64,000 nt of DNA from an uncultured Coriobacteriaceae bacterium (GTDB lineage: Bacteria > Actinomycetota > Coriobacteriia > Coriobacteriales > Coriobacteriaceae), in contig CALUFC010000001.1 in assembly GCA_944319885.1 (NCBI GenBank), positions 124,001-188,000 on the forward strand, written 5' to 3'. Positions 6,118 to 48,684 of the stretch are shown piece after piece; the stretch's first letter is position 1, and every line of letters begins with the position of its first letter. The notes beneath the pieces were generated by a model. That model was given only the letters and a program-made list of their open reading frames with translations, had not been told where the DNA came from and ran no database searches. Both the position numbers and the translations under genes were made by a program.

Positions 6118-6239
6118 GCCGCTCAATCGCCCGATGGGGATCCTGGAGCGCCAACAGTGGTGATGGTCTGTATATGAGCGCAGAAGGTTGATGTATCGTA
6201 TCGGGCTAAATCTGAATACCGTAAAAAATATCTGGTTTG

Positions 6240-6285
6240 AATCGGCAAGCGGAATATCGCTGTACGCGATAGCTGTTTGCCGATT
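6240..6285. promoter_or_regulatory. nested inverted repeat upstream of LPTTG surface protein
   Basis: An outer 9-bp arm (6240-6248 with 6277-6285) encloses an inner TATCGC (6255-6260) / GCGATA (6266-6271) repeat. The inner pair and the following GCT match the repeats upstream of both giant adhesins at 9609 and 37631. It may be an operator or a leader RNA hairpin. The remaining leader to the start codon at 6444 holds no gene. Confidence 0.55.
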
Positions 6286-6443
6286 CTTTGCATGAATTGC
6301 TTTGGAGGGAGCATTTTAAATCTCGTGTATCGCCATCACACTCTACACGCCTATCTACCTATGTCCTGAGCTGCGGGATAGAGGAATAGGCACCGCACAA
6401 ACGGATTAGAAACGAAAACGGCCATGCGGAGACAGGAGATGGG

Positions 6444-9337
6444 ATGAAACGGGAATTCATGAGGCTGGCAGGAGGTTTGGCACTTGCGGCTGCGCTTGTG
6501 TCGGTGGCTCCCTGCGTAGCCTTCGCCGCCGGTACCACGGCAGATACGCAATCGGGGGTATCTCTGAGATAACCCCGCAGGCAGATGAGCCGGTCGCAGA
6601 AATCAATGGTGTGCAATATACCGATATTGATGAGGCCATCGATGCGGCATCTGCTGGCGATACGATTACGCTGCTCAGCGATGTGAAGGTTACTAAGACG
6701 TTTTACAAGTCTCTGACCTTTACGGGTGGATATAAGTTGACCGTTGATGCGTACAGTTGGCGCTACAACGGAGATCTCATCTTTGATGCCGCTGATTTTG
6801 AGATGGTTGTCGACGCTGATTCTCCAGCAGCTGATAACGGAGAGATTTCTCGCTGGCTCGGTATGGCGCTCAGCAATGGTTCCATAGTTGCCCGAAATGG
6901 CGCCGACGTTACTTTCTCATTTGATTCTGTGAGTGGCACGAACTGCGCTATTTATGGCACGAATGCCGACATAATCGTTGAGAATGGCTCGACATTTGGC
7001 ATCTATGGCAAAAATACGGCTGGTGTTCAAGGTCAGGGATTGCAACTTGATTCAGAAAAAGCGGTTGGCATTAAGGTAACCGGAAACAGCACCTTTTTGA
7101 TCGACGGCACGAACCGCGGTTACGTCTGCAGTCCGGATATTTACGTCGAAGATTCAACGTTCAAGGTTCAGAACTGCACCGCGAATGCTTCGAACGGCGG
7201 TCTGTTCGAAGCGGTCAATTCTGAGATCAAGTTCGATAACAATGACGGCCACGGGCTTTCTGCTGGAAACGTTGTTATTGACGGGTCAACCGTAACGACG
7301 ACGAATAATGGATACTGTGGATTCGTCCTGAGTGGCAATTTGGATATCAAGAATAAGTCCGTCATTACGGTGACTGGAAACGCATGGCATGATGACAGTA
7401 ACAATGCCGCATATGCGGGTTTTCGTCTCAACGGAGGTAGCACGTCCAACGTCTACAACATAGACGGGAGCACAACACTCACCATTGCGGATAATTACAA
7501 TGCCGGTCTCGACGTACGTCGCGGCACGCTCACCATTGCTAACGGGGCGAAGGTCACCATTACCGGTAATTCGGTGACGAATACCGATATGGCGGGTTAT
7601 GGCGGCGGTATCTATGTTGGCTATAGCACGCAGTCCGATTGGGCAAAGGCAACCATTCCTTCTGACGCGCTTATTTGCAACAACCATGCCCTTAATGGCG
7701 GAGACGATATCTACGTTGCTACAGGTGTCGAGGGAGCTCGGTCCTCGTTGACCATTATTCCGGTGGCGGATGGGCAATCTCTTGACGGTACTAAGCTCGT
7801 ATCGAGTGGTAGCAGAGATTCGCGCGGCAGTGTTGCGGATGACTGCATCGACAGCATTGACGGTTGGTACCTCGACGGTATGAACGAAGAAGGAGCCCTT
7901 GATGCTGACAAGCGTTGGGAGGCCCATGCCGATTCCTATGATGGTGTATATGCTGAGCAGTATGCCGTTGACGAAACGGTAACAGTCGAGGGCCCGCTCG
8001 CCCTCAAGGCAGCGCACGGTCTCGGTGTGGTTGCTGTTGATCCGGCCGATATCACCATCTATATGGGTGGCGATGAGGGCTACGAGGGAACCGCGACCGA
8101 GAACGGTTCCATCTCCGGCAGCAACTCCCTGCCCGAGCCCGGCTTCTACTTCGTGCTGTCTGATGACATCAACCAGGCGTTCGCCGATGCTGGCATCGCT
8201 GATTTGGGCGTGGCCGCCGACCTCTCGCAGTACATGACTATCTATACGCATGGCTACAACGGCGAGAACGGCGAGCTCCACTGGAAGCTCGAGAAGTACG
8301 GCGAGAACAACTCCGAGGCATACGGCCAGTTCATCTACCGCATTGTGCCCGCGCCCACCGCAGACCAGGAAGCAGTGCCCGTGCGTCTGCAGTTTACCGG
8401 CGAGGACGGTTCGACCGTTACGAGCGACGAATTCGATCCGAGCGCAGCCGATACGCTTTCTCAGAAGTACACGATGCAGCTCTACACCGAGCTTGTTCAG
8501 AACGATCAGGTCGTGTTCGAGGTCGATATCAAGGGTCAGAAGTTCTACAACTCCATGGAGCTGCAGACCGGTGAGCTCAACGTTCGCTATGTGACGGGCA
8601 ACCAGGATGACGTGGTGAGCGATGTGCTTAACTCCGAGGCAGAGCTCGCTGCTGCGAAGGCGGAGGATCCCAACAAGGCATTTGCCCTGCATCCCGAGGG
8701 AACCACGTACTACATCAACAACAGCAAGGTCGATATCGCCGATGGTATCGCCCCGTCGCTGTTGTTTGACGATGTGGTGAGCGACCATAACACTACGGGT
8801 GCCGAGGACTACGATCAGCAGCTTGCCAGCCGTGCGGTCGATGTGGCCATATCGGCGGGTGCTGATTTTGAGAACCCGTACTTCCAGGCTAAGTACCTCG
8901 ACCTCGTGGATGCCAACAACGGCAACGTCTGGTTGACTGCGAGCGAGCCCACCACGGTGTATTGGCCGTATCCTGCTGGTACAAACGAGAACACCGAGTT
9001 CTATCTTGTGCACTTCACGGATCTCGATCGCGAGATGAACAACTCCGCCATCGACGGTGCTATCGATAGCTCGGCGACCGAGTACGTTGCCGTGGAGAAC
9101 ACCGAGCATGGCATTCGCTTCACCACCGATGGCTTCTCACCGTTCGTGCTGATCTGGGATGCCGGAACCGAGGCCGGCCCGCAGCCCGAGCCTCCCGTGG
9201 TTCCCACCGAGCCCAGCAAGCCCGGTAACGGCCTGCCCACTACGGGTGATTACTCCCTCATGGGCGCTGCCGCTGCTGCCGTCGCCGGCATCGCGGTGAT
9301 TGGTTGCGGTATCCATATGGCGCGGAAGTCGCACTAA
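6444..9337 (+). pseudogene. LPTTG-anchored surface protein, frameshifted after the signal peptide
   Basis: A start at 6444 with AGGAG at 6434-6438 encodes a classic signal peptide (MKREFMRLAGG, then a hydrophobic Ala/Leu/Val core ending CVAFAAG). The frame stops at TAA 6570-6572, while a long second frame runs on to 9337. One extra G in the GGGGG run at 6554-6558 joins the two into a 964-residue protein. The mature chain begins with a repetitive Gly/Asn/Thr-rich region typical of parallel beta-helix surface proteins. It ends with a Pro-rich linker, LPTTGD, a hydrophobic helix and a basic tail, a sortase sorting signal. It could be a true pseudogene, a phase-off allele or a sequencing error. 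Confidence 0.8.
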
Positions 9338-9415: not shown

Positions 9416-9489
9416 ACCGGATTTCCCGTGGTAGACGCACATATTGTGAAGGAGTTCTTAGTGCAGAAACAATAGGGTGTACCCTTATC

Positions 9490-9516
9490 GGTAAACGGTT
9501 ATGAGCAGGTAAACGG
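9490..9516 (+). repeat. two direct repeats GGTAAACGG
   Basis: GGTAAACGG occurs at 9490-9498 and 9508-9516, 18 bases apart, upstream of the likely adhesin promoter. The GTAAAC core recurs as a perfect palindrome upstream of the second adhesin (37593-37608). This is a candidate activator or repressor site. Confidence 0.4.
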
Positions 9517-9571: not shown

Positions 9572-9600
9572 TTGAAGCTTGCATAGATGGAGCCTAGCAT
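9572..9600 (+). promoter_or_regulatory. probable promoter of adhesin 1
   Basis: TTGAAG (-35, 9572-9577) and TAGCAT (-10, 9595-9600) are separated by 17 bases. Transcription would begin near 9607, just before the inverted repeat at 9609. Confidence 0.45.
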
Positions 9601-9608
9601 GACTAAGA

Positions 9609-9630
9609 CTATCGCTATTCCGGGCGATAG
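9609..9630. promoter_or_regulatory. inverted repeat CTATCGC-N8-GCGATAG before adhesin 1
   Basis: The 7-bp arms (9609-9615 and 9624-9630) are perfect. The sequence TATCGCT..TTCC..GCGATAGCT.TGCGCA is shared with the repeat before adhesin 2 (37631-37660). It overlaps the predicted transcription start, as an operator would, or forms a hairpin at the 5' end of the transcript. Confidence 0.6.
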
Positions 9631-9684
9631 CTATGCGCAAAACGTAGGTAAGTTGTCGCGCGCATGAGTGTGAGGAGTTGCGTC

Positions 9685-12600
9685 ATGGCGTTCTGGAAAA
9701 AGAAAACCCTCGCGGGGGGGGGCTCTCGTAGAGTAGTGCCCTGGCTTGCTGCAGCTGCGGTAACGGTGGCTGCGGTGGTGGCAACCGTTCCGCTAGCGTT
9801 TGGTGCGGTAACAGGGGTCACCTCAGTTGATCCAGACACGTCGAACAACTGGAGCTCCATTGCGGCGAGCTCAAATAGTACCGAGAATGTTGGTCGCATT
9901 TGGACCGACAAGAGTGTGTACAACGCGGATCATTCGCTTGATGGCGCGCTGAGCGGAAAGAGCATCTCTAAGGGAGATTCTGACTTCCTGGTTGGTCTGT
10001 CTGCGATGTCCTCGACGTCTAACGTGAAGTCTACGGTCACGCGCACCGATCCCCTTGACATCGTTCTCATCATCGACCGCTCTAGCTCTATGCACCAGGA
10101 CATTGAGCAGGCTGGGTCCTATACGGAGATTAATGCCAGCGACGTAGAAGAGGCGGACGGCTATCTTGAGTGGCATGATGGCATCTGGGGTTTTGGAGAA
10201 GGTAACGAAGCCCATCAGACGTCCGGTGTTAATGAATACTATGCCTTGGTTGATGGCGAGTATGTTCGAATTAACGAGGAAACCGAAACGCATAACGGTG
10301 ACGGTTGGTATGAGGGGACAAGCTACGAAGAGCATATCCGTTGGACATTGAACGGTCAGACTGTTACGCCAGAGGATACTCAGTTCTACGAGTATCAGCA
10401 AGGCGGGACAATCAGTCGCATGGAGGCTCTGAAGACCGCTGCCAACAACTTCATTGATTCCGCCGCTGGACTCCCCAACTCTGGGCAGGTGCGCATCGGT
10501 ATCGTCAGTTTCGCGGGTAGCAGCGATCGTGATTGGAATTCAGCGAGCATCGATCGTGAACTCACCGATCTCTCCGGTAACAATGCGGAGTCGTTGAAGG
10601 CAACCGTCAATAGCATCAATCCCCCGAGCAGCGGGGCGGGCACCTATCCAGCTAACGCTTTCGAAGACGCACAGAGCATGTTCAACGGGTCCGCTCAAGG
10701 TACCCAGAAAGTCGTTGTATTCTTTACCGACGGCGGTCCTGGTGGCACTACGGGCTCCGTGCTCGACAACGGCGTTGCGAATGATACGATTCAGGCCTCA
10801 CATGCCGTCAAGGTGTCTGGGGCAACCGTCTATTCGGTTGGCGTGCTTGACGGCGCCGATCCCTCGGCGGACATCAGCAACGTAAGCAATAACTCAAACT
10901 CGACTCTTCGCGTGAATGCTTACATGCACGCCGTCTCGAGCAACTACCCCTCTGCGACCGGATTTACGAGCAATGCAATCGGCTATCGTGCACCCAACAG
11001 TGACTACTACAAAGCGGCATCAAACTCCGAAGAACTCAACGACATTTTTAGCAACATCTTCGATGAGATCGAGCAGAACCAGGGTTCCGGTTCGCCTATC
11101 GAGGAAAATGTTCCCGGCGGGGGCGCTGAGAACACCCCTGGAAATCTTGTCTTCGAGGATCAGCTCGGCGACTACATGCAGGTTACTGGCGACAAGATGA
11201 CGCTTGTATATGCTGATGGTCTGCATGAGAGCACGCGCACGACAACTCAAGGTAACGTTACGACCTATTACTTCGAAGGTCAGTTCGCTGGTAACGGCGT
11301 TTACGGCGCGGCAAACTATAGCGACATCACCGTGACGGTCACGCACAGCAGTGATCCCGCTACGGGCGATAAGGTCACGGCCACCATCCCGGCGAGCCTT
11401 ATCCCCATGCGTTCCTACAATATTGATATGGACAGCGAGACTCCGACCATGACCATCACGGACGCCTATCCCATGCGTCTGTATTATGGCGTGAGCTTGA
11501 AGCGGGAAGCAAAGGACGCACTGAATAGCGGTACCGGCGACGTGTATGAGGCCATCGTTGAGAGCCAGGCTTCTGAAAGCGGCACCGTGGACTTCTACAC
11601 CAACGCGTTTATCGAAGCCGCTTCCAACGGTCTTACGACGGCGACCTTCACGCCCAACGAGGCCAATAAGTTCTACTACTATACGCAGGACACCACGCTT
11701 TACTTAGACGAGGATTGCACCCAGGTTGCCACATCGCAGAACAGCCAGCGTGTGGATACGTTCTATTACTCTGAGCCGTACTGGACACGCAACCAAGATG
11801 GAACTGCGGTTGAACATAACGAGGGCATCGCTATCAGCCGCTTGGATACCGACTTTGGAAGTGTTGAGACCAACTGGCGGGGCGAGCTGTACATCCCTGC
11901 TCACACCGCACGACAGGATCGTCCGAACACCCTGAACGTGACCAAGAACCCGAACGAAACGGGAACTGCTTCAGAGGTGCTGGCGCCTGCTTGGAACAAC
12001 ACCAATGAGTCTGTTACGCAGCATCTCGGCAATAACGGCAAGATGAGTTATCCGATGCCGGGTTCTATCGAGATCAAGAAGACGGTCGACTGGACCAACG
12101 CATCCAGCCAAACTCAGCAGGATAAGAATTCCTTCACCTTCGATATCTCGCTCACGGATGTGGACAACAACCCCATCAGCGGAACGTACAACTACTACGT
12201 CGATAACGCTGAGACCGCTTCTGGTCAGGTGATCTTCACCAACGGTCACGCAAGCATCAAGGTTAACGGCGGCACGACGGTGCGCATCGACGGCCTGACC
12301 TCTGGTGCTAAGTTCACCGTGACCGAGCAAGGGGTGGGTGAGAACGGCTTTACCGTTACATCCGACTCGACTTCGCAGGCCGAGGGTGAGAACGTTAGTA
12401 CCACCGACGGCATTGTGAGCGGCACCATTGTTGCGGGCTCGCAGGTCTCGCTTTCCTTTGACAACCGGTATCACGCTGAGGATATTGACCTGAATGCAAC
12501 GGCCACCCTGCAGGTGAAGAAGAACCTGACCAATCGCGAGTGGCGCGACACCGATGAGTTCACATTTGTGATTGACGGCCTCGGCAACACGGCTGCAGGC

Positions 12601-15600
12601 AATATTGCTACACCTGAGCCCGCCGAGACCACAATCACAATTGATGACGAAACGACCGACTACACCAAGGCGTTCGGTGACATTACCTTTACGGCGCCCG
12701 GTGTGTATCGCTACAGCGTCGTTGAGGATAACGACACCAACCCCATCGCGGGCATCGACTACTCCGACGCCATCTACCGCGTGGTGGTGACGGTGATTGA
12801 TGACGGTGCAGGCCAGCTTGAGATTTCCGGCGTGAAGGTCGAGCAGACCCAGAACGACGAGGGCAGCATGGGTGCCCAGGACGAGCCTATTGCCGTCGAG
12901 GGCACCACGATGACCTTCACCAACAACTACGACGCCGGCGTTGGCACCACTAATATCAACGCGGTAAAGAACTATGTCGACACCACGGGTGGCAACCCGA
13001 TTGACCACAACAAGTTCCAGTTCCAGATTGAGGCGCTCGGTGGTTACGAGACCGATGGCGGCTCCTCGAGCAGCTACACGGTTGACGCTGCCGATGTCCC
13101 CATGCCCGAGGGTTCCACTGGCACTACCAAGCAGATGGGCAACACCGGCTCTCAGGTCAACTTTGGCACCATCACCTATGACGGCGACGCCGTGGGCAAG
13201 ACCTTCGAGTACAAGGTGACCGAGCTTGGCGGCAATGAGCAGGGTATGGACTATGACAAGACCGAGCACATTGTCCAGGTGAAGGTCGAGGAGGTCACCG
13301 ACGACACCGGTACGCATATCGTGGCGACGGTGCTTGGCGACTATGCTGATCCGAGCAACCTGTCCTTCTCCAACACCTACAAGCCGACCGAGGTGACGTT
13401 GAGCGGCGACACCGCCATTCACGGCACCAAGACGCTGACTGGTCGCGATCTCAACGACGGCGAGAAGTTCTACTTCACGCTGACGCAGACCGGTGGTCCG
13501 GCGACGCTCGATCCCAACGACGACGCCGACGCATATGATCAGGTTTTGGCGCAGTCCGAGATTGTTTCTGTCGATAGCTTGACGGACGGGTCCGCGGACT
13601 TCTCATTCGGTGATCTGAGCTTCACTCAGGTGGGTACTTACACCTTCACGGTTGACGAGACCGCGGAGAACGGTTCCGACACCACCGACGGCAACGGCCT
13701 CACCTACAGCAAGAACGTGGCGACGGTGACCGTCGAGGTGAAGGACAACGGCGAGGGAGCGCTCGTGCCCACGGTGTCCTACGTCAACTCCACCGGTAGC
13801 ACCGCGACCGACAAGGCCGTGTTCACCAACGTGTACGAGTCCTCGATGGACTACGGTGCGGATGGTGCCGGTGGCATCACCGTCACTAAGCAGCTCAATG
13901 GTCGTCCCATGGCAGCCGACGAGTTTACCTTCACCATCACGGGGCAGGATGCGGCGGCCGATATGACCACCGACCTCGATCAGGAGTTCAAGAACACGGG
14001 CGCCGCTGAGGGCGAAACCATAAGCATGGAGAAGCTTCAGAGTCTGAGCTTTGATCAGGATGACGCGGGCAAGACGTACACCTTCATCGTGGATGAGGTC
14101 GAAGACGACCTGACCAAGGTTACCTACGATCAGTCGCAGTACGAAGTTGAGATTGCCGTGTACGACGATGGCCTTGGCCACATGCATACCGTGACCAACG
14201 TCACGAAGATCAAGGATGCCCAGGGCGACACGGTGAACGAGCCTGTTGTGACAGATGCTGACTCCAGTGCAGATGAGTATTCTGTCCCGACATTTGGCTT
14301 TGTGAACACGTACACTCCTGACCAGGTGGTTGTTGGTGAGGATGCGAAGAACGCCATCCAGGTGACCAAGACCGTTACTGGCGCTCCGTCGCCCGACGGT
14401 GTGAGCTATGGCTTCACGCTCACGCTTACCAGCAATAATGCTGACGGCATTGCGAGCGGCATGGACGTCAACGATGAGGGTGCGCTTCAGGCACACATCC
14501 AGACGTCCGGCGTAATCGAGGCCAACGGCTCACAGGCTGTATCCTTCGGCGACATCAGCTTCTCCAAACCGGGTACCTACACGTTCAATGTGACCGAGGA
14601 CGCCCTTGCCGCTGATGATGGTTGGAGCTATGACACTGTCAACAGCGGCCCCAAGACCGTGACGGTTGTTGTTCGCAACACCAACGATCAGGGTCAGTTC
14701 GATGGCAAGCTCTACATTGATAGTGTGACTGGCAACCCGGCTGAGGTGACTAACAGCTACAAGCCCGGTGAGGTCGTTGTGGGCGGTGATGGCGCCGAAC
14801 AACAGATCACGGTGCAGAAGACCGTGACCGGTGCCGATTCCAACGCCACCTTCACGTTCCAGATTGAACCGGTCATCGATAATGACCATACGAGCGAGTG
14901 GTGGAGCGACCGCGTGAGCGGCACTGCAGGCTTCACGCCCGAGACGACTATCTCCAGTGTGACCCAGAAGCAGGCCAAGACTGCCACTTTCGGCGGCATC
15001 ATCTTCAATGCCGAGGGCAAGTATCAGTTCAAGATTACCGAGCGGGGCGCGGCCGACTTCAACGCTGGCGACACCCGCAATGGCTGGACCTACGACGAGC
15101 ACGCGTCCTACGCGACCGTGACCGTTACCGATACGGACTACGATGGTTACCTTGAGGCATCGGTGTCGTACAACAACGATGACGCCACCACCGAGGCCGA
15201 CCAGGCAGTGGACAATGCCGCTGCGTTCACCAACGCGTATACGACGACCCCGGCCGAGCTGACCAAGGATGCGGAGTCTGGCATCGGTGTTCAGAAGCAC
15301 GTTGAGGGCGCGCCGAACTCGACGAACTTCGCCTTCACCGCGATCTTCAACGCCGATGCGAGCGCCGAGCAGGCTGCGGATGCCAGCTTGACCGCAGGCG
15401 TGGCCTCGAGCATCGAGGGTCTGACCGGCGGCAAGCTCTCCGTGACCATCAGCGATGACTTCAAGGCAGACGATACGAAGGCCGCCGACTTCGGCACCAT
15501 CAAACTCACCAAGCCTGGCGTGTACGTGTTCGACGTGACGGAGGACAACGCCAAGAGCGAGGCTCCCAACGGCTGGACCTACGATACGGCTACCCATCAG

Positions 15601-18600
15601 ATCACGGTAACGGTCACCGACAACGGCCAGGGCAAGCTCGAGGCGTCCGTTGAGAACAATGACCCGCTGTTCACCAACAGCTATCAGGCCGGCAGCATCA
15701 CGCTGGACGGCGAAGACCAGCTCAAGGTGACCAAGGAGGTCACGGGTGCGCCTGCGCTCTCCGACTTCGACTTCACGCTGAAGCTCACCGATGGCGACCC
15801 GAGCGGCGTGACCGGTATCGGCGATGATGGCATCACCAAGTCCACCTCCGGCCTGACCGGCAAGGAGGGCGATGAGGCGAAGCAGACTGTCTCGTTCGGC
15901 AGTCTGACTTTCACCAAGGCCGGTACCTACGAGTTCCAGGTTGTCGAGAACACCACGACAGCCGCCGATGGCTGGACCTATGCCTCCGGCGAGGACAACG
16001 CCAAGACCATCACGGTCACGGTGACCGACGACCAGTTCGGCGGTCAGCTCGAGGCGACCACCGAGGTTGATGGCACGGATACCAACAACCCGACCTTCAC
16101 CAACAGCTACAAGGCCAGCTCTATCACCACTGGTGAGGACGGTCTCGACGAGCTCCAGGTGACCAAGGCTGTGACCGGTGCGCCTGCCACTGAGGAGTTC
16201 ACCTTCGAGCTGACTCCGGCCAAGGACTATGGCGACAAGGTCGAGGGCCTCAAGGACGGCAAGCTCACGGTTAGCACGACCGATCTGAAGGGTCAGGAGG
16301 ATTCCCGCACCCTCACCTTCGGCGATCTGACCTTCAACGCGGAGGGCACCTACACCTTCGACGTCAAGGAGACCAACGCCGATCCCGCCGAGGGCAGCGG
16401 CTGGACCTATGACAACGATGCCGCCAAGCAGATCACCGTGGTGGTGACCGACGAGAACCACGACGGCAAGCTCGACGCGACCACCGTGGTCGATGGCCAG
16501 GACACCAACAACCCGACCTTCACGAACGCCTATGTGCCCGCCGAGATCACGACCGACGCGGATGCCGGCACAGCCATCCAGGTGACGAAGAAGGTCACCG
16601 GCCGTGACGCCACCGAGGCGTACGACTTCTCGCTGACCCTCAAGGAGGGCCAGAACGCCGATGCTGTGTTCAAGGGTAAGGGTGAGGACAAGACCCCGTT
16701 CGACGGCATGGAACTCACCACGTCCAAGGACATCAAGGCCGGCAAGACCGAGACCAAGACCTTCGGCGACATCACGTTCACCGAGGCCGGTGACTACACC
16801 TTCGTGATCGACGAGACCACGACGACCACCGCCGGCGGCTGGACCTACGATGGCTCCACGCACGAGGTGACGGTCCATGTCACGGATGATGGCAAGGGTG
16901 CGCTGCACATCGAGAGCATCGATGGCAACGATCCGACGTTCGAGAACGTCTACAAGCTCCAGCCGGCCAAGTTCCGTGCCGTGCGCTTCATGCTCCAGGG
17001 CAACAAGGTGCTCGACGGCCGCACTTGGGAGACCGGCGACGAGTTCACCTTCACGCTGACCCCGGGCCGCGGCGACAATGTCGATGGCTCGCAGATGAGC
17101 GAGGATGAGGTTACGGCCACCATGCCCGCCTCGACTTCCGACACCATCCGCCCGGCGGACGGTGACGGCTCCAAGGTGACCGACAACTCGGCCCAGTTCA
17201 CCTTCACGGACGAGCGCTTCCCGGGCGAGGACATCGTGGGCAACGAGGACGACGTCTTCACCTACACCAAGCCGGGCACGTACCGCTATCTCATCCGTGA
17301 GACCAACCCGAACGTATCCAACCCTGGCTCGGGCATTCTGGGCGTGAGCTATGACCAGACGGTCTACCGCCTGACGGTCAAGGTCACCGACAACGGTGAT
17401 GGCACGATGAGCGCTGAGGGCTCGTACACGAAGCGCAACGCCGACGGTACCTGGACCGACCTGACCGGCAGCAACGAGGTCACGTTCACCAACAAGTACT
17501 CGTCCGACGAGGTCGACATCACCTTCAACGCCTTCAAGGTGCTCCAGAACCGCGACCAGAACATGAAAGACGGCGAGTTCACGTTCCATATGGAATTCGC
17601 CGGCTGGGCAGCCAACGACGCGAACGCCGACCCGAACGACGATTCCGTGTGGACGATGGATGACACCACGAACGCGCCCGAGGCCGCCGCTGATACCGGC
17701 AACATCATCCGCGGCGACGTGACCTTCGACGGCATGACCTTCACGAAGGACAACGTGGGCTACACCTACCGTTACAAGATCACCGAGAACCCGGGCGACG
17801 TGCCGGGCGTGACCTACGATACGAGCGTCAAGTACGTGACCGCCAAGGTGACGAGCGTTTCGACGCCCGACGATCCGCAGGATCCGGACGGTGCCTACAC
17901 CGAGCACGTCCGCGTGGAGACGAGCGGTGAAGCTGAGTGGAACGAGCAGGCCGGAACTGCCCCCACCGCCGGCGCCATCTTCACCAACACCTATCAGGCT
18001 GGCGCCGCCACGGGAGTACCTGCGGACTTCTCGTTCACCAAGCAGTTCGTCGGGCACGAGTGGACGGACAACTACAGCTTCGAGTTCACGCTTGCCGCGC
18101 AGGACAGCAAGCTCGCTGACGGCACGCCTGTTGCCGCCGCGGACGTTCCCATGCCCGCAAGCGCCACGAAGACCGTGAACACGCCCGGCCAGGAGGGCGG
18201 CGACACCGCGACCTTCGACTTCGGTAGCATCAGCTACGACAAGGCCGGTATCTACAACTACACCGTGACCGAGAAGAACGCTGGACAGACCATCGACGGC
18301 ATCACGTATGACGCGCAGCCGGCTCAGGTGACCGTCACCGTGACCGAGGGCAAGGATGAATCCGGCGCGCTGACCGGTCAGCTGGTGGCTACCGCTACCG
18401 TGACCAACGGCGACTTCGTTAACGAGTACCACGCCTCCGCCAGCTACAAGGCGAGCGGCGTGGGCGGCCTGGACATCACCAAGCAGCTCAACAACCACGA
18501 GATGGCTGACGATCAGTTCAGCTTCACCATCGAGGCCGCTGACGAGGCTGCCGCTCAGAAGCTCGGCATTCAGGACGGTCTGACCACCACGGTCACGAGC

Positions 18601-20682
18601 GCCGCCGCGGCTGCCAACACGCCGCAGTCCGTGAAGTCCAACCCGTTTGACACCATCGTGTTCAACGAGAAGGACGACGGCGTCACCTACACCTACACCA
18701 TCACCGAGAACACGGACGGTGTCGACAGCCACTACAAGACGGACGACACTACCTACACCGTCTCGATCACCCCGACGGACAACGGTGACGGCACCATGAC
18801 GGTGAAGACCGTTGTCAACGGCGCCGAGACCACCAACAAGCGCGCCACCGTCGCGTTTGTGAACAGCTACCAGGCCGACCCGACCACGGTGGGCGCCGAG
18901 GGTGCCGCCACGATTACGGGCACCAAGACCCTCAAGAACGACACCCTGACCAACGGCCAGTTCACGTTCCAGGTGAAGAGCGGCGACGTGGTGGTTGCCG
19001 AGGGCACGAACGACGCCAACGGGAAGATCACCTTCGGTGACATCACCTATAACACTGAGAACCTTGCCGCAGCTGCGACGGTCGACGGTTCCGACAAGGT
19101 CGGCAAGGCAACTGTACAGACCACCGCCGCGGGCACCGAGTACACGTTCACCTATACGGTGAGCGAGGTCGCGCCCGCGACCGGCTCCGGCGTGACGGCT
19201 GGCACCGCCGCCCAGAACGTCACCATTACGGTTACGGATGACGGCAACGGCACGCTCACGCCCGTCGTGACCTACGGCGACGGTGACCCGCTCGCCTTCG
19301 AGAACGTCTACGGCGGCGACGCCGAGTTCGCGCTCGACATCGCGGGCACCAAGAAGATCGTGGGTGCGCAGGACAATCTCAATGTGCCGCAGCTCACGGC
19401 CGATGCGTACCAGTTCACCATCACCGGCAACCCTGCCGCGGACGGTACGCCCGCCCCGATGCCCGCCGTCACCACGGTCGGCAACGATGCCAGCGGCAAC
19501 GTGACGTTTGGGGACATCGTCTACACGATGGAGAACACTTTCGGCTCCGCGCCGGCGACGGCTGAGGCCGCCGCTGACGCCGCGACCGACGAGGGCATCG
19601 AAACCTACACGGCCGGCCGCACTCAGGTGTTCACCTACACCATCAGCGAGTCCGGCACGGTTGCCGGCGTCACCAACGAGCAGGGCACCAAGACCGTCCA
19701 GGTCACGGTGACCGACCTTGGCGGCGGCAAGATCAAGGCCGAGGTGACCTCCGACAAGACCGCCGAGGGCGCGGACTTCGGCTTCACCAACGTGTACGAT
19801 GTGAAGCCCGAGGACTCCAGCCTCACCGGCAACGGCGGGTTCACCATCACCAAGGACTTCTCGTCCACCAACACCGACCGTACGCTGGTCGAGGGTGAGT
19901 ACGAGTTCCAGCTCAAGAGCGGCGATGACGTGGTTGCCACCGCAAGCAACGATGCAGCGGGCAACGTGAGCTTCGGTTCCATCACGTTCACCAAGCCCGG
20001 AACGTACAACTACACGCTCTCCGAGGTCAACGGCGGCAAGCCGGGCGTTACCTACGACCAGACTGTCTACAACGTGACGGCCAAGGTAGAGGATAAGGGT
20101 GACGGTACACTTACGGTGACGTGGGAGATGCCGCAGGCCGAGAACAACGGCGTGACGTTCAGCAACACGTACACCGCCGCGGATGCCAACATCACGCTCA
20201 AGGCCGCTAAGGTGCTCAATGGCCGTGCGCTTGCCGATGGCGAGTTCACCTTCGAGCTGCGCGAGAACGGAACGGTTCTCGACACGGCGACGAACGATGC
20301 GACGGGTCAGGTTACGTTCGATGCCATCACCTACTCTGAGCCCGGTGAGCACGATTACGAGATCGTGGAGGTTGCTGGCAACGAGGCCAACATGACCTAC
20401 GACACCACCGTGCATACCGTGCATGTGAGCGTGACGGACAATACCGAGACCGGCTCGCTGGCCGTTGCGTGGAACTATGGTGAGACGGGTGAGCCGGTGT
20501 TCACCAACACCTACACCGAGCCCGTTACGCCTTCTGAGCCCTCTGGTCCGAGCGAGCCTGCCAAGCCGGCCGATAACTTGCCGGTGACGGGCGACTACAC
20601 GCTGCCTATCGTGGGCGGTATCGTGGTTGCTGGTGCTGCGCTCATCCTGGGTGGCCGTGCTATCAGGAAGCGTGGTGAGTAA
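9685..20682 (+). CDS. giant vWA / isopeptide-repeat surface adhesin with LPVTG anchor (adhesin 1)
   Basis: This 3665-residue protein has a signal peptide with a Lys-rich start and Ala/Val core. A von Willebrand A domain follows with MIDAS D131-R-S-S-S, and a segment containing YYALVDGEYV is inserted after the MIDAS. About 19 tandem domains follow, each ending in F(T/V/S/E)N.Y and having a GTYTF.V.E strand. These fit Spy0128-like pilin domains with Lys-Asn isopeptide bonds. The C-terminus is NLPVTGD, a hydrophobic helix and RKRGE. It is probably a wall-anchored fibrillar adhesin with a vWA head. The start at 9685 is preferred over 9664 because GAGGAG lies at 9672-9677. A G9 tract falls in codons 10-13. 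Confidence 0.93.
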   Translation: MAFWKKKTLAGGGSRRVVPWLAAAAVTVAAVVATVPLAFGAVTGVTSVDPDTSNNWSSIAASSNSTENVGRIWTDKSVYNADHSLDGALSGKSISKGDSDFLVGLSAMSSTSNVKSTVTRTDPLDIVLIIDRSSSMHQDIEQAGSYTEINASDVEEADGYLEWHDGIWGFGEGNEAHQTSGVNEYYALVDGEYVRINEETETHNGDGWYEGTSYEEHIRWTLNGQTVTPEDTQFYEYQQGGTISRMEALKTAANNFIDSAAGLPNSGQVRIGIVSFAGSSDRDWNSASIDRELTDLSGNNAESLKATVNSINPPSSGAGTYPANAFEDAQSMFNGSAQGTQKVVVFFTDGGPGGTTGSVLDNGVANDTIQASHAVKVSGATVYSVGVLDGADPSADISNVSNNSNSTLRVNAYMHAVSSNYPSATGFTSNAIGYRAPNSDYYKAASNSEELNDIFSNIFDEIEQNQGSGSPIEENVPGGGAENTPGNLVFEDQLGDYMQVTGDKMTLVYADGLHESTRTTTQGNVTTYYFEGQFAGNGVYGAANYSDITVTVTHSSDPATGDKVTATIPASLIPMRSYNIDMDSETPTMTITDAYPMRLYYGVSLKREAKDALNSGTGDVYEAIVESQASESGTVDFYTNAFIEAASNGLTTATFTPNEANKFYYYTQDTTLYLDEDCTQVATSQNSQRVDTFYYSEPYWTRNQDGTAVEHNEGIAISRLDTDFGSVETNWRGELYIPAHTARQDRPNTLNVTKNPNETGTASEVLAPAWNNTNESVTQHLGNNGKMSYPMPGSIEIKKTVDWTNASSQTQQDKNSFTFDISLTDVDNNPISGTYNYYVDNAETASGQVIFTNGHASIKVNGGTTVRIDGLTSGAKFTVTEQGVGENGFTVTSDSTSQAEGENVSTTDGIVSGTIVAGSQVSLSFDNRYHAEDIDLNATATLQVKKNLTNREWRDTDEFTFVIDGLGNTAAGNIATPEPAETTITIDDETTDYTKAFGDITFTAPGVYRYSVVEDNDTNPIAGIDYSDAIYRVVVTVIDDGAGQLEISGVKVEQTQNDEGSMGAQDEPIAVEGTTMTFTNNYDAGVGTTNINAVKNYVDTTGGNPIDHNKFQFQIEALGGYETDGGSSSSYTVDAADVPMPEGSTGTTKQMGNTGSQVNFGTITYDGDAVGKTFEYKVTELGGNEQGMDYDKTEHIVQVKVEEVTDDTGTHIVATVLGDYADPSNLSFSNTYKPTEVTLSGDTAIHGTKTLTGRDLNDGEKFYFTLTQTGGPATLDPNDDADAYDQVLAQSEIVSVDSLTDGSADFSFGDLSFTQVGTYTFTVDETAENGSDTTDGNGLTYSKNVATVTVEVKDNGEGALVPTVSYVNSTGSTATDKAVFTNVYESSMDYGADGAGGITVTKQLNGRPMAADEFTFTITGQDAAADMTTDLDQEFKNTGAAEGETISMEKLQSLSFDQDDAGKTYTFIVDEVEDDLTKVTYDQSQYEVEIAVYDDGLGHMHTVTNVTKIKDAQGDTVNEPVVTDADSSADEYSVPTFGFVNTYTPDQVVVGEDAKNAIQVTKTVTGAPSPDGVSYGFTLTLTSNNADGIASGMDVNDEGALQAHIQTSGVIEANGSQAVSFGDISFSKPGTYTFNVTEDALAADDGWSYDTVNSGPKTVTVVVRNTNDQGQFDGKLYIDSVTGNPAEVTNSYKPGEVVVGGDGAEQQITVQKTVTGADSNATFTFQIEPVIDNDHTSEWWSDRVSGTAGFTPETTISSVTQKQAKTATFGGIIFNAEGKYQFKITERGAADFNAGDTRNGWTYDEHASYATVTVTDTDYDGYLEASVSYNNDDATTEADQAVDNAAAFTNAYTTTPAELTKDAESGIGVQKHVEGAPNSTNFAFTAIFNADASAEQAADASLTAGVASSIEGLTGGKLSVTISDDFKADDTKAADFGTIKLTKPGVYVFDVTEDNAKSEAPNGWTYDTATHQITVTVTDNGQGKLEASVENNDPLFTNSYQAGSITLDGEDQLKVTKEVTGAPALSDFDFTLKLTDGDPSGVTGIGDDGITKSTSGLTGKEGDEAKQTVSFGSLTFTKAGTYEFQVVENTTTAADGWTYASGEDNAKTITVTVTDDQFGGQLEATTEVDGTDTNNPTFTNSYKASSITTGEDGLDELQVTKAVTGAPATEEFTFELTPAKDYGDKVEGLKDGKLTVSTTDLKGQEDSRTLTFGDLTFNAEGTYTFDVKETNADPAEGSGWTYDNDAAKQITVVVTDENHDGKLDATTVVDGQDTNNPTFTNAYVPAEITTDADAGTAIQVTKKVTGRDATEAYDFSLTLKEGQNADAVFKGKGEDKTPFDGMELTTSKDIKAGKTETKTFGDITFTEAGDYTFVIDETTTTTAGGWTYDGSTHEVTVHVTDDGKGALHIESIDGNDPTFENVYKLQPAKFRAVRFMLQGNKVLDGRTWETGDEFTFTLTPGRGDNVDGSQMSEDEVTATMPASTSDTIRPADGDGSKVTDNSAQFTFTDERFPGEDIVGNEDDVFTYTKPGTYRYLIRETNPNVSNPGSGILGVSYDQTVYRLTVKVTDNGDGTMSAEGSYTKRNADGTWTDLTGSNEVTFTNKYSSDEVDITFNAFKVLQNRDQNMKDGEFTFHMEFAGWAANDANADPNDDSVWTMDDTTNAPEAAADTGNIIRGDVTFDGMTFTKDNVGYTYRYKITENPGDVPGVTYDTSVKYVTAKVTSVSTPDDPQDPDGAYTEHVRVETSGEAEWNEQAGTAPTAGAIFTNTYQAGAATGVPADFSFTKQFVGHEWTDNYSFEFTLAAQDSKLADGTPVAAADVPMPASATKTVNTPGQEGGDTATFDFGSISYDKAGIYNYTVTEKNAGQTIDGITYDAQPAQVTVTVTEGKDESGALTGQLVATATVTNGDFVNEYHASASYKASGVGGLDITKQLNNHEMADDQFSFTIEAADEAAAQKLGIQDGLTTTVTSAAAAANTPQSVKSNPFDTIVFNEKDDGVTYTYTITENTDGVDSHYKTDDTTYTVSITPTDNGDGTMTVKTVVNGAETTNKRATVAFVNSYQADPTTVGAEGAATITGTKTLKNDTLTNGQFTFQVKSGDVVVAEGTNDANGKITFGDITYNTENLAAAATVDGSDKVGKATVQTTAAGTEYTFTYTVSEVAPATGSGVTAGTAAQNVTITVTDDGNGTLTPVVTYGDGDPLAFENVYGGDAEFALDIAGTKKIVGAQDNLNVPQLTADAYQFTITGNPAADGTPAPMPAVTTVGNDASGNVTFGDIVYTMENTFGSAPATAEAAADAATDEGIETYTAGRTQVFTYTISESGTVAGVTNEQGTKTVQVTVTDLGGGKIKAEVTSDKTAEGADFGFTNVYDVKPEDSSLTGNGGFTITKDFSSTNTDRTLVEGEYEFQLKSGDDVVATASNDAAGNVSFGSITFTKPGTYNYTLSEVNGGKPGVTYDQTVYNVTAKVEDKGDGTLTVTWEMPQAENNGVTFSNTYTAADANITLKAAKVLNGRALADGEFTFELRENGTVLDTATNDATGQVTFDAITYSEPGEHDYEIVEVAGNEANMTYDTTVHTVHVSVTDNTETGSLAVAWNYGETGEPVFTNTYTEPVTPSEPSGPSEPAKPADNLPVTGDYTLPIVGGIVVAGAALILGGRAIRKRGE
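9714..9722 (+). repeat. G9 homopolymer tract in adhesin 1 signal-peptide codons
   Basis: Nine consecutive G residues span codons 10-13, before the hydrophobic core. In the present length the reading frame is open. Losing one G leads to GCT CTC GTA GAG TAG and gaining one leads to CTC TCG TAG, so either change truncates the protein at once. This is the form of a slipped-strand phase-variation tract. Confidence 0.8.
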
Positions 20683-20683
20683 C

Positions 20684-21037
20684 ATGCCAAGCAAGGGCAC
20701 CGGTTCTTCCCTCAAGGGCGTGAGCACCCGCATCAACGGCCGTCATGCGTTCATCCACGAGCGCGTGCTGGAGCTCATTGCTCGCGAGACCGAATTGCGC
20801 GGCGCCGTCACGTTCCGCAAGGGCGATCTTGCCCAGCGGCTGGGGTGCTGTGAGCGCTCGCTCGATCGCGCGCTCACGCGCCTGCGCCGCGATGGCTATG
20901 TGATCTCCACACCCATGTTTGGAGAGACGGGTGCCCAGCTTGGTAACGAGTACAAGGCCACGGCGGACGGCATCGCACTCGCCGGCGGATTCCGGAAGGA
21001 TAAGAACGCCGGGTACCGTACGGGAGTCCGCGCGTAG
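20684..21037 (+). CDS. small winged-helix-like DNA-binding protein coupled to adhesin 1
   Basis: This 117-residue basic protein starts one base after the adhesin stop (TAACATG), so translation is probably coupled; GGTGAG lies just before the stop. Residues about 38-80 (VTFRKGDLAQRLGCCERS, then LDRALTRLRRDGYVIS) have the spacing of a helix-turn-helix followed by a wing, as in MarR- or crp-type folds. The family has no name I recognise. Its paralogue at 48319 sits in the same position after adhesin 2, and the two share a GSSLKG..TRINGRHAF start. A regulatory role on the adhesin is inferred from fold and linkage only. Confidence 0.75.
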   Translation: MPSKGTGSSLKGVSTRINGRHAFIHERVLELIARETELRGAVTFRKGDLAQRLGCCERSLDRALTRLRRDGYVISTPMFGETGAQLGNEYKATADGIALAGGFRKDKNAGYRTGVRA

Positions 21038-31992: not shown

Positions 31993-32040
31993 AGCGGCTC
32001 AACGCGCAGGTAAGCGGGTTTTGTGCGGCAAGGAAGGGCT

Positions 32041-33375
32041 ATGACGGAGTACCAGGGTAAACGGTTCAAGCGCCCCGCAGGGGAAGGGCATGCTGCCGAT
32101 GTACGCCCCGGCGGGGCTCATGCGGCACCGCGCCACGCTGCGCCGAGCACGCCTGGTGCGCACCGAGCCCCTTACGTGCCGCCCGCCCCGCGTCACGCTG
32201 CGCCGGTTTCCTCGACGCCGCAGGCTCGTCCTGCAGGCGCGCGATTTGCCGCGTCGGCGGGCGGGGGGTCAACGCGGCAGGCACCTCCCTCCGAGCGTCC
32301 CGCGGGGAGGCGGTTCAAGCAGGCAGCGCCCGATCCGGCTACACGGGCGGCTGCGCCGTCGCATGCCGCGCACGCTGGATCCTCAGCTCCATCTGCCGCG
32401 CCCGCGTCGCACCGCCGCCCGCCCCAGGCGCAGCAGGTTCCCGCCAGCCGCGCCGCAACGGCACCTCGCGCGGCGATTCCCGTTACGGGCGCGCGCGGCG
32501 TGCGGCCGTCGTCGTACACGCATCCCGAGAACGCTCGCAGCACGGGCCGTGCCGCATCGTCGCGCGCTGCCGCCAAGACCCGTGGCGGTTCGCAATCGGG
32601 GCGCCGGCGCAACGTGCTGTCCACAGTGCTCATCGTGGTGGGCGTGCTGCTCCTTGCCGCCGCGGCCGGTATCTTCATCTTCGCGCAGCTCGGCTACAAC
32701 CAGGCGAGCGACGCCTACGATAAGATCGCCGAGTCGGTTACCGTGAACGACGAAGGCGCCTCCGGCGTCCCCACGATCGACTTCGACGCGCTGCGGGAGA
32801 TCTGCCCCGACGTGGTGGGTTGGATCTACATCCCCAACACCAACGTGAACTATCCGGTGGTACAAGACGAGGACAACACCAAGTACCTCCGCCATCTCAT
32901 CGACGGCACCTGGAACATCTCGGGTTCGGTGTTCATGGACTGCGACCAAACCGCTCCGGGCATGGTCGACCAGCAGACGACGCTCTACGGGCACCATATG
33001 AACAACAACACGATGTTCGCCCAGATCGACCAAACCACCGACCAGGCGGCGTTCGATGCTATCGAGGCGGTGTACTACATCACGCCCGATACGGTGTACC
33101 GCCTGCGTCCGCTGGCAACCACGGTGGTAGACGACTCATACGTCGAGGCGCGCCAGGCCAATTTCGGCGACCAGGCGGCGCTCGCCTCGTATCTCAACGG
33201 GCTCATCGACCGTGCCGACGCCAAGGCGGCAGACGCGAAGGAGCGTGCCGCGTCGGCCGAGCAGATCATGTCGCTGATCACCTGCAACTACGGATGGGGC
33301 GTCAAGGCGCGCGCCGTGATGACGCTCACCCTCGAGGAGGCAACGCCGGTGGCGCATGCCGAGACGGGCGCCTAG
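32041..33375 (+). CDS. class B sortase with long disordered N-terminal region
   Basis: This 444-residue transpeptidase cuts sorting signals and links surface proteins to the wall or to each other. Residues 1-190 are rich in Ala, Pro and Arg and probably disordered in the cytoplasm. A transmembrane helix is at about 192-218, then the sortase domain outside. Catalytic residues are visible: His318 or His319 in LYGHHM, Cys415 in LITCNYG and Arg424 in VKARAVMTL. The N-terminus is far longer than the family norm. GGAAGGG precedes the ATG at 32041. It is the only sortase in the window, but pairing with the LPxTG proteins here is not proven. Confidence 0.9.
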   Translation: MTEYQGKRFKRPAGEGHAADVRPGGAHAAPRHAAPSTPGAHRAPYVPPAPRHAAPVSSTPQARPAGARFAASAGGGSTRQAPPSERPAGRRFKQAAPDPATRAAAPSHAAHAGSSAPSAAPASHRRPPQAQQVPASRAATAPRAAIPVTGARGVRPSSYTHPENARSTGRAASSRAAAKTRGGSQSGRRRNVLSTVLIVVGVLLLAAAAGIFIFAQLGYNQASDAYDKIAESVTVNDEGASGVPTIDFDALREICPDVVGWIYIPNTNVNYPVVQDEDNTKYLRHLIDGTWNISGSVFMDCDQTAPGMVDQQTTLYGHHMNNNTMFAQIDQTTDQAAFDAIEAVYYITPDTVYRLRPLATTVVDDSYVEARQANFGDQAALASYLNGLIDRADAKAADAKERAASAEQIMSLITCNYGWGVKARAVMTLTLEEATPVAHAETGA

Positions 33376-37592: not shown

Positions 37593-37608
37593 GTAAACTA
37601 TAGTTTAC
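37593..37608. promoter_or_regulatory. 16-bp perfect palindrome GTAAACTATAGTTTAC
   Basis: A loop-free 16-bp palindrome lies 114 bases before adhesin 2 and overlaps the predicted -35 element. The GTAAAC half-site also occurs twice before adhesin 1 (9491, 9509). It looks like a dimeric regulator site. Confidence 0.6.
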
Positions 37609-37632
37609 GTTACCTAGACTTAACCCTGTATA
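37604..37632 (+). promoter_or_regulatory. probable promoter of adhesin 2
   Basis: TTTACG (-35, 37604-37609) and TGTATA (-10, 37627-37632) are 17 bases apart. The -35 overlaps the 16-bp palindrome and the -10 overlaps the TATCGC inverted repeat, so both candidate operators sit on the promoter. The rest of the 284-base spacer after purF has A/T runs and no gene. Confidence 0.5.
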
Positions 37633-37651
37633 TCGCTCGTTCCAAGCGATA
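37631..37651. promoter_or_regulatory. inverted repeat TATCGCT-N7-AGCGATA before adhesin 2
   Basis: Arms at 37631-37637 and 37645-37651 are perfect. The core and flanks (TTCC in the loop, GCT.TGCGC after) match the repeat before adhesin 1. A related TATCGC/GCGATA pair lies before the LPTTG protein at 6255-6271. Confidence 0.6.
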
Positions 37652-37706
37652 GCTGTGCGCATTTTGGGTTGTCTTGTGCGCAGGGGAGTTAAGGATAGGT
37701 GTTCGT

Positions 37707-40700
37707 ATGCCGCAACTGAAGTTCAATCATCGTAAACGGCCGGGAGACGGTGCCAACAAGCCGGTGCGCAAGGCGCTCTGGCACCGCATTGCTGCGGCGG
37801 CAGGCGTTGTCGCCATAGCGGCAGCGGGAATCGGGGCTATCGCCATGACGGCGCAGGCCGATCCGCACCCGGTTCAGAAGGATACCGTTGCCGACAATTC
37901 GACGCTCGGCAACTGGAGCGGCGCGGTGGGCATCGAAGACACCACCGAGAACGTCGGTCGCATCTGGACGGACAAGACCGTGCAGAATGAGGACGTTACG
38001 CTCTCGGGTGATGTCGGCCAATCGGTCAATATTGAAAAAGGCAGCTCCGACTTCCTCGTGGGGCTCTCCGCTCTCTCCTCCATGTCGAACACCATGACGA
38101 CGTCCACCACTCCCCTGGACATCGTGCTCGTGCTCGACATGTCCGGCTCCATGTCCGGTGAGCTGAGCAGCGAGCAGCAGTTCGTGTACAACGAGGTGGG
38201 TGCTCGAAACGTTCAAGGTTCTGATGTGGAGAGCCACCGTGGCTTTGGAAGGACATATTACACGCAAGTAGACCCCGGCGATTACTACGTTCTGGTTGAC
38301 GGTGAGTATGTGCCCGTCCTTGAGCATACGCACACGGAGAGCTACCAGAGCCGCTTTAATGGCATGCAGGATTTTGATATCCACGACTATTGGTATCTTG
38401 AAGATGGCACTCAAGTAGACCCGAGCACCACGCAGTTCTACACGCGTCGTTCCCAGACGGTAACAACGACGAAGATTGACGCGCTGAAGGAAGCCGTCAA
38501 TGAGTTCATCGAAACCACCGATCAGGCGAACGCGTCCTTGCCTGCAGATGGCAAGCACGAGGTTTCAATCGTGAAGTTCGCAAGCGACAGCACGGATCGG
38601 GTTGGTAATAACACCTACGACGATTATCGATATGACCCGTCGACCCTGAACTACAGCCAGGTCGTAACCGACTTCACCTCGGATGCGACCGCGCTTGAAA
38701 GCTACGTCAACAATCTCGAGCCTGCTGGTGCGACGCGTGCCGACTTAGGCATGGAGCAGGCTCAACGCGTTATCGACGGCGACCGTAGCTACAATCTTGA
38801 AGGAGCCCGCGATAACTCCAAGAAGGTTGTCATCTTCTTTACTGACGGTCAACCCACGAGTTCGGACAGGTGGGACGCAGGCGTAGCGAATGCCGCCATT
38901 CAAACTACCTACGAGATGAAGAACGACCGGAATGACCCGGTCACCGTCTATTCCATTGGCGTGTTCGAGGATGCCAATCCGTCGAATACCACGGATGACA
39001 GCTTCAACTGCTACATGCACGCCGTGTCGAGCAACTATCCCAATGCAACCGGCTATCGGCACTACCAAGGCTGGTGGGATTCGGGCAATATGGGTGACCG
39101 TACGCCTGGGTCCGACTATTACAAGGCGGCCACAAGCTCTGACGAGCTGAGCCAGATCTTCCAGGGCATCTCTGAAGACATCGGCTCCGGCACCGGTGCG
39201 CCTACTCAAACCGAGGGCGAGAACACCGAGACCACGTCGGGCTACATCACCATCACCGACCAGCTCGGTGATTACATGAAGTTCGACGGCATGAAGAACG
39301 TCGTTTTCGCGGGGCAGAAATTCAACCAGGTGGGCGAACCGGCTCCGGACACTGATCCCGACTATAGTGGTTGGACTCGCTACACCTTCGCAGGCGAAGC
39401 GAACAACGACATCTATCCCGAAGGCAACCTCGACCAGCTCATCATTCGCGTGAAGGAGGGTGGCGACCTCAAGACGGGCGATACCGTCCAGGTTCAGATT
39501 CCCGCGAGCCTCATCCCCACACGCTATTTCGACGTGGATGCGACGGCGGGCACCATGTCCGTCACGGACGCCTACCCCATCCGCATCTTCTATGGCGTGA
39601 GTTTGAAGGGCGGCGTGGCCGATAGCGTCGCGGCGGGCGTTCCCATGGGTGGCCTCACGCAGACGCAGTACGATGAGCTCGCGACGTATGTCAGGAGCAG
39701 CCAGTACACCAATGAGGACGGCACCGCGTACGCGAGCTTCCTCTCGAATGCGTGGACCGGCGGTGCGAACGGCAACACCACCTCGAGCTTCGAGCCGTCG
39801 AGCGGCAACGAGTTCTATTACTTTACGAAGCCCACGACCCTCTACTTTGACGAGGCTTGCGAGCGTCCGGTTACGGATCGTAGCCAGATCCGGGACGGAC
39901 AAACCTACTACTACAAGAACACCTTCTGGCAGTTCACAGACGAGAACGCAGATACAGACGGCACGCCGTATGCAGCCGAAGAGACGTTCACGCCCTTCGC
40001 GCTCACTGCTGCGCAGGCGCGCCAGCTCGCAACGGGCACAGACGGTGATGGCAACGTGTGCATCCCCGCTGGCACGCGTCACACGGCGATGATCAGCGAG
40101 CTTGTGGAGAACAAGGCCGACGGCGCCAACAAGACCTCCACGGCAACATCTGTCATCAACCCGAATTGGGCGGGCAGCGGCGAGGACGAGACCATCGATG
40201 CCGCGCTGGGCAACAACGGCCGCCTGGGTATCGAGCTGCCCGGCACGCTTTCCGTGACGAAGAACATCGAAGTCCCGACGGGCGTGGATGCTGCGCAGTT
40301 CGCGAACACCGAGTTCCCGTTCCAGATCACGATGGCCGACGCCGCAAACTACACCTTCAAGGCGCAGGTTAAGAACGCCGATGGAACCATCGCGAACCCT
40401 GCTTCGGGTGAGGGTTACTTCGATCTTCGGTTTGATGCTGAGGGCAAGTCCACAACCGTGAACCTCAAGCCCGACCAGACCCTTACGATCTACGGCTTGG
40501 GTGATGGCTGGACCTATAGCGTGGCCGAGACCGGCACGATGCCCGCAGGCTTCGCACAGACCGAGCCTGCCGATGGTGCTCCTGCAACGGGCACCATCGA
40601 TCAGGCGACGCCCGCCGTGGCCAACTTCACGAACACCTATAGCTTCAATGATGACGTTACCATTAACGGCAAGACCGACCTCTCCGGCACGAAGACGCTG

Positions 40701-48318: not shown

Positions 48319-48684
48319 ATGGCAACGGGGTCCTCTCTGAAGGGCATCACGACTCGCATCAACGGCAGGCACGCCTTTGTGTACGAACGAGTACTTGCAC
48401 TCGTGGTGCGCGAGACGCAGCTGCGCGAGTCGGTGACGTTCAGCAAGCAGGACCTCGCCCGTCGCATGGGTTGCTGCGCCCGCTCGGTCGACCGCGCGGT
48501 GCAGAAGCTGCGCCGTGACGGCCTTATCGAGTCCGAGGCGGTCTATAACGAGAACGGGGCCCAGCTGGGCAACATGTATCGGGCAACGCAGGAAGGCATC
48601 GACCTCGTGGCGACGTTTCGCCGGGAAAAGAAGCCCGCGCGCGGCGCAGCAGCAATCGGTGCGACGAAGGCGGATGCGAGCTAG
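48319..48684 (+). CDS. small winged-helix-like DNA-binding protein coupled to adhesin 2
   Basis: This 121-residue basic protein starts one base after the adhesin 2 stop (TAGCATG), exactly as its paralogue follows adhesin 1. Shared features are GSSLKG, TRINGRHAF, a helix-turn-helix-like DLARRMGCCARSVDRA, then KLRRDGLI and NGAQLGN.YRAT..GI. The C-terminal tail (KKPARGAAAIGATKADAS) is variable. The double Cys in the recognition region (GCC) is kept in both and might respond to redox. Role as local regulator is inferred. Confidence 0.75.
   Translation: MATGSSLKGITTRINGRHAFVYERVLALVVRETQLRESVTFSKQDLARRMGCCARSVDRAVQKLRRDGLIESEAVYNENGAQLGNMYRATQEGIDLVATFRREKKPARGAAAIGATKADAS

Follow-up and report, generated by a model that had tools for sequence, protein, structure and literature searches.

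Stem-loops at the 5' end of the transcript stabilise the ompA, recA and vacA messages (PMC7509114). The leaders described here precede two giant adhesin genes of the window, by which we mean the whole 64-kb stretch of DNA that was analysed. They resemble the ompA-type stabilisers (ompA; recA of Acinetobacter; vacA of Helicobacter; PMC7509114) in carrying a stem-loop at the predicted 5' end, in adjoining an open Shine-Dalgarno (SD) sequence and in standing before a surface or secreted product. They differ in that the adhesin leader has two tandem hairpins and occurs in a different phylum, and no sequence homology is claimed. Collinsella-1 (RF01700, PMC2864571), a candidate RNA from comparative genomics, is alike in being a conserved RNA with covariation and unknown function, and RNAs of this kind come partly from the same bacterial group as the adhesin leaders. 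In contrast to Collinsella-1 and other Rfam families, none of which matches here, the adhesin leader is always found before adhesin genes. Rfam gave no match in the window at gathering or relaxed thresholds, and with eight leader loci the sole match was sR16, a chance one at 25 of 70 bits. A literature search found no account of an adhesin two-hairpin leader. The element is a real, conserved leader RNA that belongs to a known general type and was previously unlisted, with no entry in Rfam.

The adhesin leaders and the evidence for RNA structure

Adhesin 1 (9685-20682, + strand; 3665 aa) contains, according to Pfam, a signal peptide, a vWA domain, 18 FctA/Spy0128 isopeptide domains and an LPxTG-like end; adhesin 2 (37707-48317, +; 3536 aa) contains a vWA domain and 16 FctA domains. 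The leader of such genes is about 80 nt long and consists of a TAGNNT −10 box, 8-10 nt, hairpin 1, 1-2 nt, hairpin 2, SD and ATG. Hairpin 1 has the arms CTATCGC/GCGATAG, separated by 8, 9 or up to about 13 nt among leaders, and hairpin 2 the arms TGCGC/GCGCA with a loop of 15-22 nt. Before adhesin 1, a sigma-70-like promoter (9572-9600, +) was read from the sequence, TTGAAG (9572-9577) and TAGCAT (9595-9600) separated by 17 nt, and it is conserved in the sister species G005; its position predicts a transcription start 1-3 nt before hairpin 1. Hairpin 1 (9609-9630, +), recognised from the sequence and from compensatory changes, is followed by hairpin 2 (9632-9666, +), in which TATGCGC (9632-9638) pairs with GCGCATG (9660-9666) and the outer pair is changed from G-C to A-U relative to sister leaders. 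The SD sequence AGGAG (9673-9677) and the start ATG (9685) come next. Before adhesin 2, a −10-like box TAGACT (37615-37620, +) precedes hairpin 1 (37631-37651, +), recognised on the same two grounds, and hairpin 2 (37653-37683, +), formed by CTGTGCGC (37653-37660) and GTGCGCAG (37676-37683); this helix is also paired in the RNA fold, and the leader model matches. Each of these two repeats, at 9609-9630 and at 37631-37651, is the first hairpin of a two-hairpin 5' leader.

With the 83-nt model R2, which covers both hairpins, 11 leaders were recovered in 9 Coriobacteriaceae genomes of three genera among the 395 genomes of the order that were searched; five other matches at E<=0.01 in this set (E 5e-4 to 8e-3) appear to be chance or coding. 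Model R3, built from all 11 leaders, recovered the same 11 and one weak match in G042 (E 0.04). Model matches at L071-L073 (order-wide, outside the family) and at L074 and L077 (inside it) were rejected as coding or unsupported; at L025 (R1 E 0.005), also rejected, no leader before an adhesin gene was seen. All 11 leaders precede surface-adhesin genes in the same orientation, one of these genes being a decayed remnant, and in 10 of the 11 a TAGNNT box ends 8-10 nt 5' of hairpin 1, the eleventh having TAGAAC. This fixed position before one gene class, with compensatory changes in the helices, is what is expected of a cis-acting leader RNA in general. When 84,980 genomes were scanned with a 20-base pattern, six leaders were found in Coriobacteriaceae records (Collinsella sp. 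An7, An268, uncultured Collinsella, uncultured Coriobacteriaceae bacterium and Candidatus Coprousia), all before surface-protein genes, while none of the seven matches in other groups lay before an adhesin or surface-protein gene. In G002 (L011, G002:C15) the leader is retained before the frameshifted adhesin remnant, and an intact winged-helix gene follows.

Pairing was assessed in an 11-sequence alignment. Standard pairs occupy 94.8% of pair cells, compared with 91.0% in shuffled controls and 11-59% with partners slid. Four pairs, two per helix, are changed on both sides across the leaders: in hairpin 1 of G059, G-C to C-G in L024 and U-A to C-G in L057; in hairpin 2, the outer G-C to A-U in L013 and L014 and an inner G-C to A-U in L037. 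Such double changes make up 6 of 154 cells of the covariation alignment, which was fitted to the structure and favours it somewhat, and the arms can be checked by eye. Between the two species G000 and G005 the 80-nt leader is 95% identical, the 200 nt upstream 53% and the gene start 73%; between L010 and L015 the corresponding values are 86%, 45% and 35%. Single-sequence folds of most leaders are no better than those of shuffles (z −2.2 to +0.2), and for L013, L016, L024 and L057 the fold of lowest energy departs in part from the model, so the case for RNA rests on comparison. A pseudoknot of loop 1 with the SD region was rejected, its complementarity being lost in L013/L014. The letters of the stems are conserved beyond the needs of pairing, which could mean sequence-specific binding. 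Taken together, the compensatory changes in both hairpins and the conservation of the leader over its upstream DNA argue, at the level of sequence, for an RNA element and not a rigid operator. The first-pass annotation had wavered between an RNA hairpin and an operator; for the two adhesin copies the former is borne out by the compensatory changes in two adjacent helices, the variable arm spacing, the fixed distance to the −10 box and the conservation.

Proposed role of the leader

By analogy with the known stabilisers, the leader probably serves as a 5'-terminal mRNA stabiliser and translation leader, which would hide the 5' end and keep the ribosome site open; stabilisation is argued here from position and precedent. 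Transcription would most likely start 1-3 nt before hairpin 1, a placement predicted from the position of the −10 box, so that the messenger would open with a stem-loop. The second stem-loop would follow 1-2 nt on and end just before the SD sequence. The 5' stem-loop may hide the end of the messenger from 5'-dependent decay, and such protection would suit adhesin messages of 11 kb. The leader may also hold the ribosome site open, and the SD sequence is unpaired in the clearest folds (L010, L015).

A regulated RNA switch, in which the leader senses a protein, metabolite, ion or temperature and thereby alters how the adhesin message is translated or degraded, is a possibility that we regard as tentative. 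Adhesins are typical regulated genes, sequence conservation within a clade is strong and includes loop 2, and in both species the fold of the surface gene 3 leader (see below) is closed by a helix in which the SD region is paired. However, the unpaired positions, which in a riboswitch are conserved across clades, vary between clades here (alignment A6) save for AAA after the hairpin-2 arm, unlike those of known aptamers, and no Rfam family matches the leader. As for an expression platform, there is no terminator, the L010 and L015 folds leave the SD sequence open, and SD pairing occurs only in the leader of gene 3. An anti-SD switch by alternative pairing of CTATC with GGATAG was considered and rejected, since this pairing is missing in L013, L014 and L057. 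The clade-variable loops and the open SD sequence in the clearest folds make a ligand-sensing switch less likely.

Winged-helix proteins and candidate DNA sites

Downstream of adhesin 1 lies the gene for a winged-helix protein (20684-21037, +), HTH_Crp_2-like below the cut-off, whose ATG is 2 nt past the adhesin stop; a second (48319-48684, +) is coupled to adhesin 2. These co-transcribed proteins are 117-121 aa long and each starts at the adhesin stop. For 10 of the 11 adhesins with a leader, such a gene follows on their contig, and in the eleventh case the contig ends first. Seven family genomes that lack the leader encode the protein as well. In other genomes, several adhesin genes next to a winged-helix gene carry leaders of a quite different kind, in some cases preceded by a serine recombinase, and related genomes (L112, L113, L124, L127, L128, L130) contain modules that combine a serine recombinase, a surface protein and a winged-helix protein.

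That hairpin 1 instead acts as a DNA operator for the co-transcribed winged-helix protein, or for another dimeric regulator, seems unlikely. Its dyad symmetry adjoins the start site and, contigs permitting, a winged-helix gene stands downstream of every leader. But the arm spacing ranges from 8 to 13 nt, and a second, separate helix with loops of 15-22 nt co-varies, features that a rigid operator would not fit. Nor does the site go with the protein: the HTH proteins of the window have different recognition helices (CCERSLDRALTRLRR, CCARSVDRAVQKLRR) but identical repeat arms, and a G063 protein has exactly the recognition helix of the adhesin-1 partner, yet hairpin 1 is degenerate there. Hairpin 1 is thus unsupported as an operator of the coupled protein, and HTH-coupled genes without the repeat exist in other genomes. 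The earlier suggestions that the repeats are operators and that the coupled HTH-like proteins are their ligands did not hold up on these grounds. It is equally improbable, though conceivable, that the winged-helix protein or another factor binds the leader RNA and feeds back on adhesin translation.

Better candidate sites for a DNA operator lie upstream of hairpin 1. A perfect palindrome, GTAAACTATAGTTTAC (37593-37608, +), at the −35 region of adhesin 2 is a candidate operator for an XRE regulator; an identical copy lies between an 88-aa XRE-type gene (L186) and its divergent neighbour, and 33 of the 64 family genomes contain the palindrome's 14-base core. Another candidate regulator site is the bipartite box TCGGTAAACGG-N7-CAGGT (9488-9510, +), which lies some 100 nt upstream of the start site of adhesin 1. 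The pattern TCGGYRAAYGG-N7-CAGGT has nine matches in the 64 genomes; six of these, in G000, G005 and G063, precede a surface or adhesin gene (five cases) or an HTH gene (one case); a half-box precedes gene 3 at 6241-6252. Several sister leaders without the bipartite box carry TACCTG, the reverse complement of CAGGTA. Judged by sequence, the palindrome and the box are the better operator candidates, and any protein named as the reader of either would be a putative one.

The repeat at 6255, surface gene 3 and the G tract

The three inverted repeats were found where the first-pass annotation had placed them, with 5, 8 and 9 bases between the hexamers: TATCGC-N5-GCGATA at 6255-6271, CTATCGC-N8-GCGATAG at 9609-9630 and TATCGC-N9-GCGATA at 37631-37651. 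Its view that they are one element shared by all three surface genes is mostly refuted, and we consider it very improbable. TATCGCT and GCGATAGCTRT are common to all three, but the 6255 repeat is a separate hairpin, and it is not a member of the adhesin leaders. It forms the inner part, or tip, of a 48-nt hairpin (6239-6286, +; z −6.8) that overlaps the half-box ATCGGCAAGCGG (6241-6252), and it lies about 60-160 nt upstream of gene 3's own leader hairpins and start codon; the large hairpin appears to be upstream of the gene 3 promoter. In G005 the orthologous intergenic region lacks this hairpin. Model R1 scored the adhesin repeats at 54.7 and 43.0 bits versus 18.7 for the 6255 copy, and the full leader model R3 did not report the latter at E<=5. 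As a dispersed repeat the 6255 hairpin was rejected, its matches being itself and weak partial ones.

Gene 3 has a leader of another sequence. Positions 6341-6443 align with G005, and both fold as two successive hairpins before the start codon: hairpin 1 (6349-6391, +) with the outer stem GCCTAT/ATAGGC, in which four of the six outer pairs are changed on both sides relative to G005 and all six still pair, and hairpin 2 (6393-6429, +), CCGCA ... TGCGG, just before the SD sequence and the ATG at 6444. The aligned fold with its compensated stem indicates that a two-hairpin leader precedes gene 3 at 6349-6429. An R3 match on it (6352-6446), fifth-ranked with E 4.2, is non-significant and no more than suggestive of a common ancestry with the adhesin leaders. 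The LPxTG surface gene 3 itself (6444-9337) carries a frameshift near a G5 run (6554-6558) and loses its reading frame after residue ~42, while G005 has an intact copy.

Exact TATCGC-N3..12-GCGATA sites number three in the 64-kb window against 0.06 expected, and none of 100 shuffles had three. Both adhesin repeats hold TTCC within the loop and GCTRTGCGCA behind the repeat, which confirms the shared TTCC and GCT.TGCGC noted at first. Across the 2.02-Mb genome the bare two-arm pattern occurs at nine places (reversed control 0), of which the six beyond the window are without adhesin-type flanks and mostly inside open reading frames. The extended motif GCGATAGCTNTGCGCA occurs in this genome at two places, both at adhesin genes, and in five of eight other genomes of the genus as a single copy directly before a surface-protein gene (reversed control 0). 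The scan proposed at first, for clustering of hits before LPxTG genes, thus gives a clear result with the extended motif, which always stands before surface genes; the extra sites of the bare motif lie mostly in reading frames. Chance palindromes or terminator-like hairpins, a reading that the six further two-arm matches, several within reading frames, might encourage, are already contradicted for the 9609 and 37631 repeats and can practically be dismissed, given the excess over expectation, the conservation, covariation and exclusive adhesin context, and the lack of a T-run after either hairpin.

Ten codons into adhesin 1 lies a G9 tract (9714-9722); no other G/C run in the 64 kb reaches a length of 7. 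In the orthologue of G005 the tract is G10 and the gene is out of frame. Tracts of 8-10 G near surface-gene starts were also seen at L024, L030, L032, L037, L043, L108, L109, L157 and L158. Sortase-dependent pilus loci of Bifidobacterium breve undergo G-tract slippage (PMC9187656), and by analogy the adhesin-1 tract is likely a slipped-strand phase switch: in both cases the reading frame of an actinobacterial sortase-anchored surface protein depends on the length of a G tract inside its gene. The likeness to the B. breve loci (PMC9187656) concerns the tract at 9714-9722 and not the hairpin leader. Purine and pyrimidine synthesis genes (purA, purD, carA, carB, purE, purF-like and purM-like) are interspersed among the surface genes of the window and its class B-like sortase gene (32023-33375).

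The leader family is a marker of giant sortase-anchored adhesins in Collinsella-like gut bacteria. If feedback through the leader RNA were true, each giant adhesin would have three layers of control, namely the upstream DNA box, the leader RNA and the G-tract frame switch. Exact stems and predicted start sites are given in testable form, and the RNA signals are separated from the DNA boxes and the G-tract switch within the same promoters, which opens the regulation of host-attachment genes in this little-studied group to direct tests.
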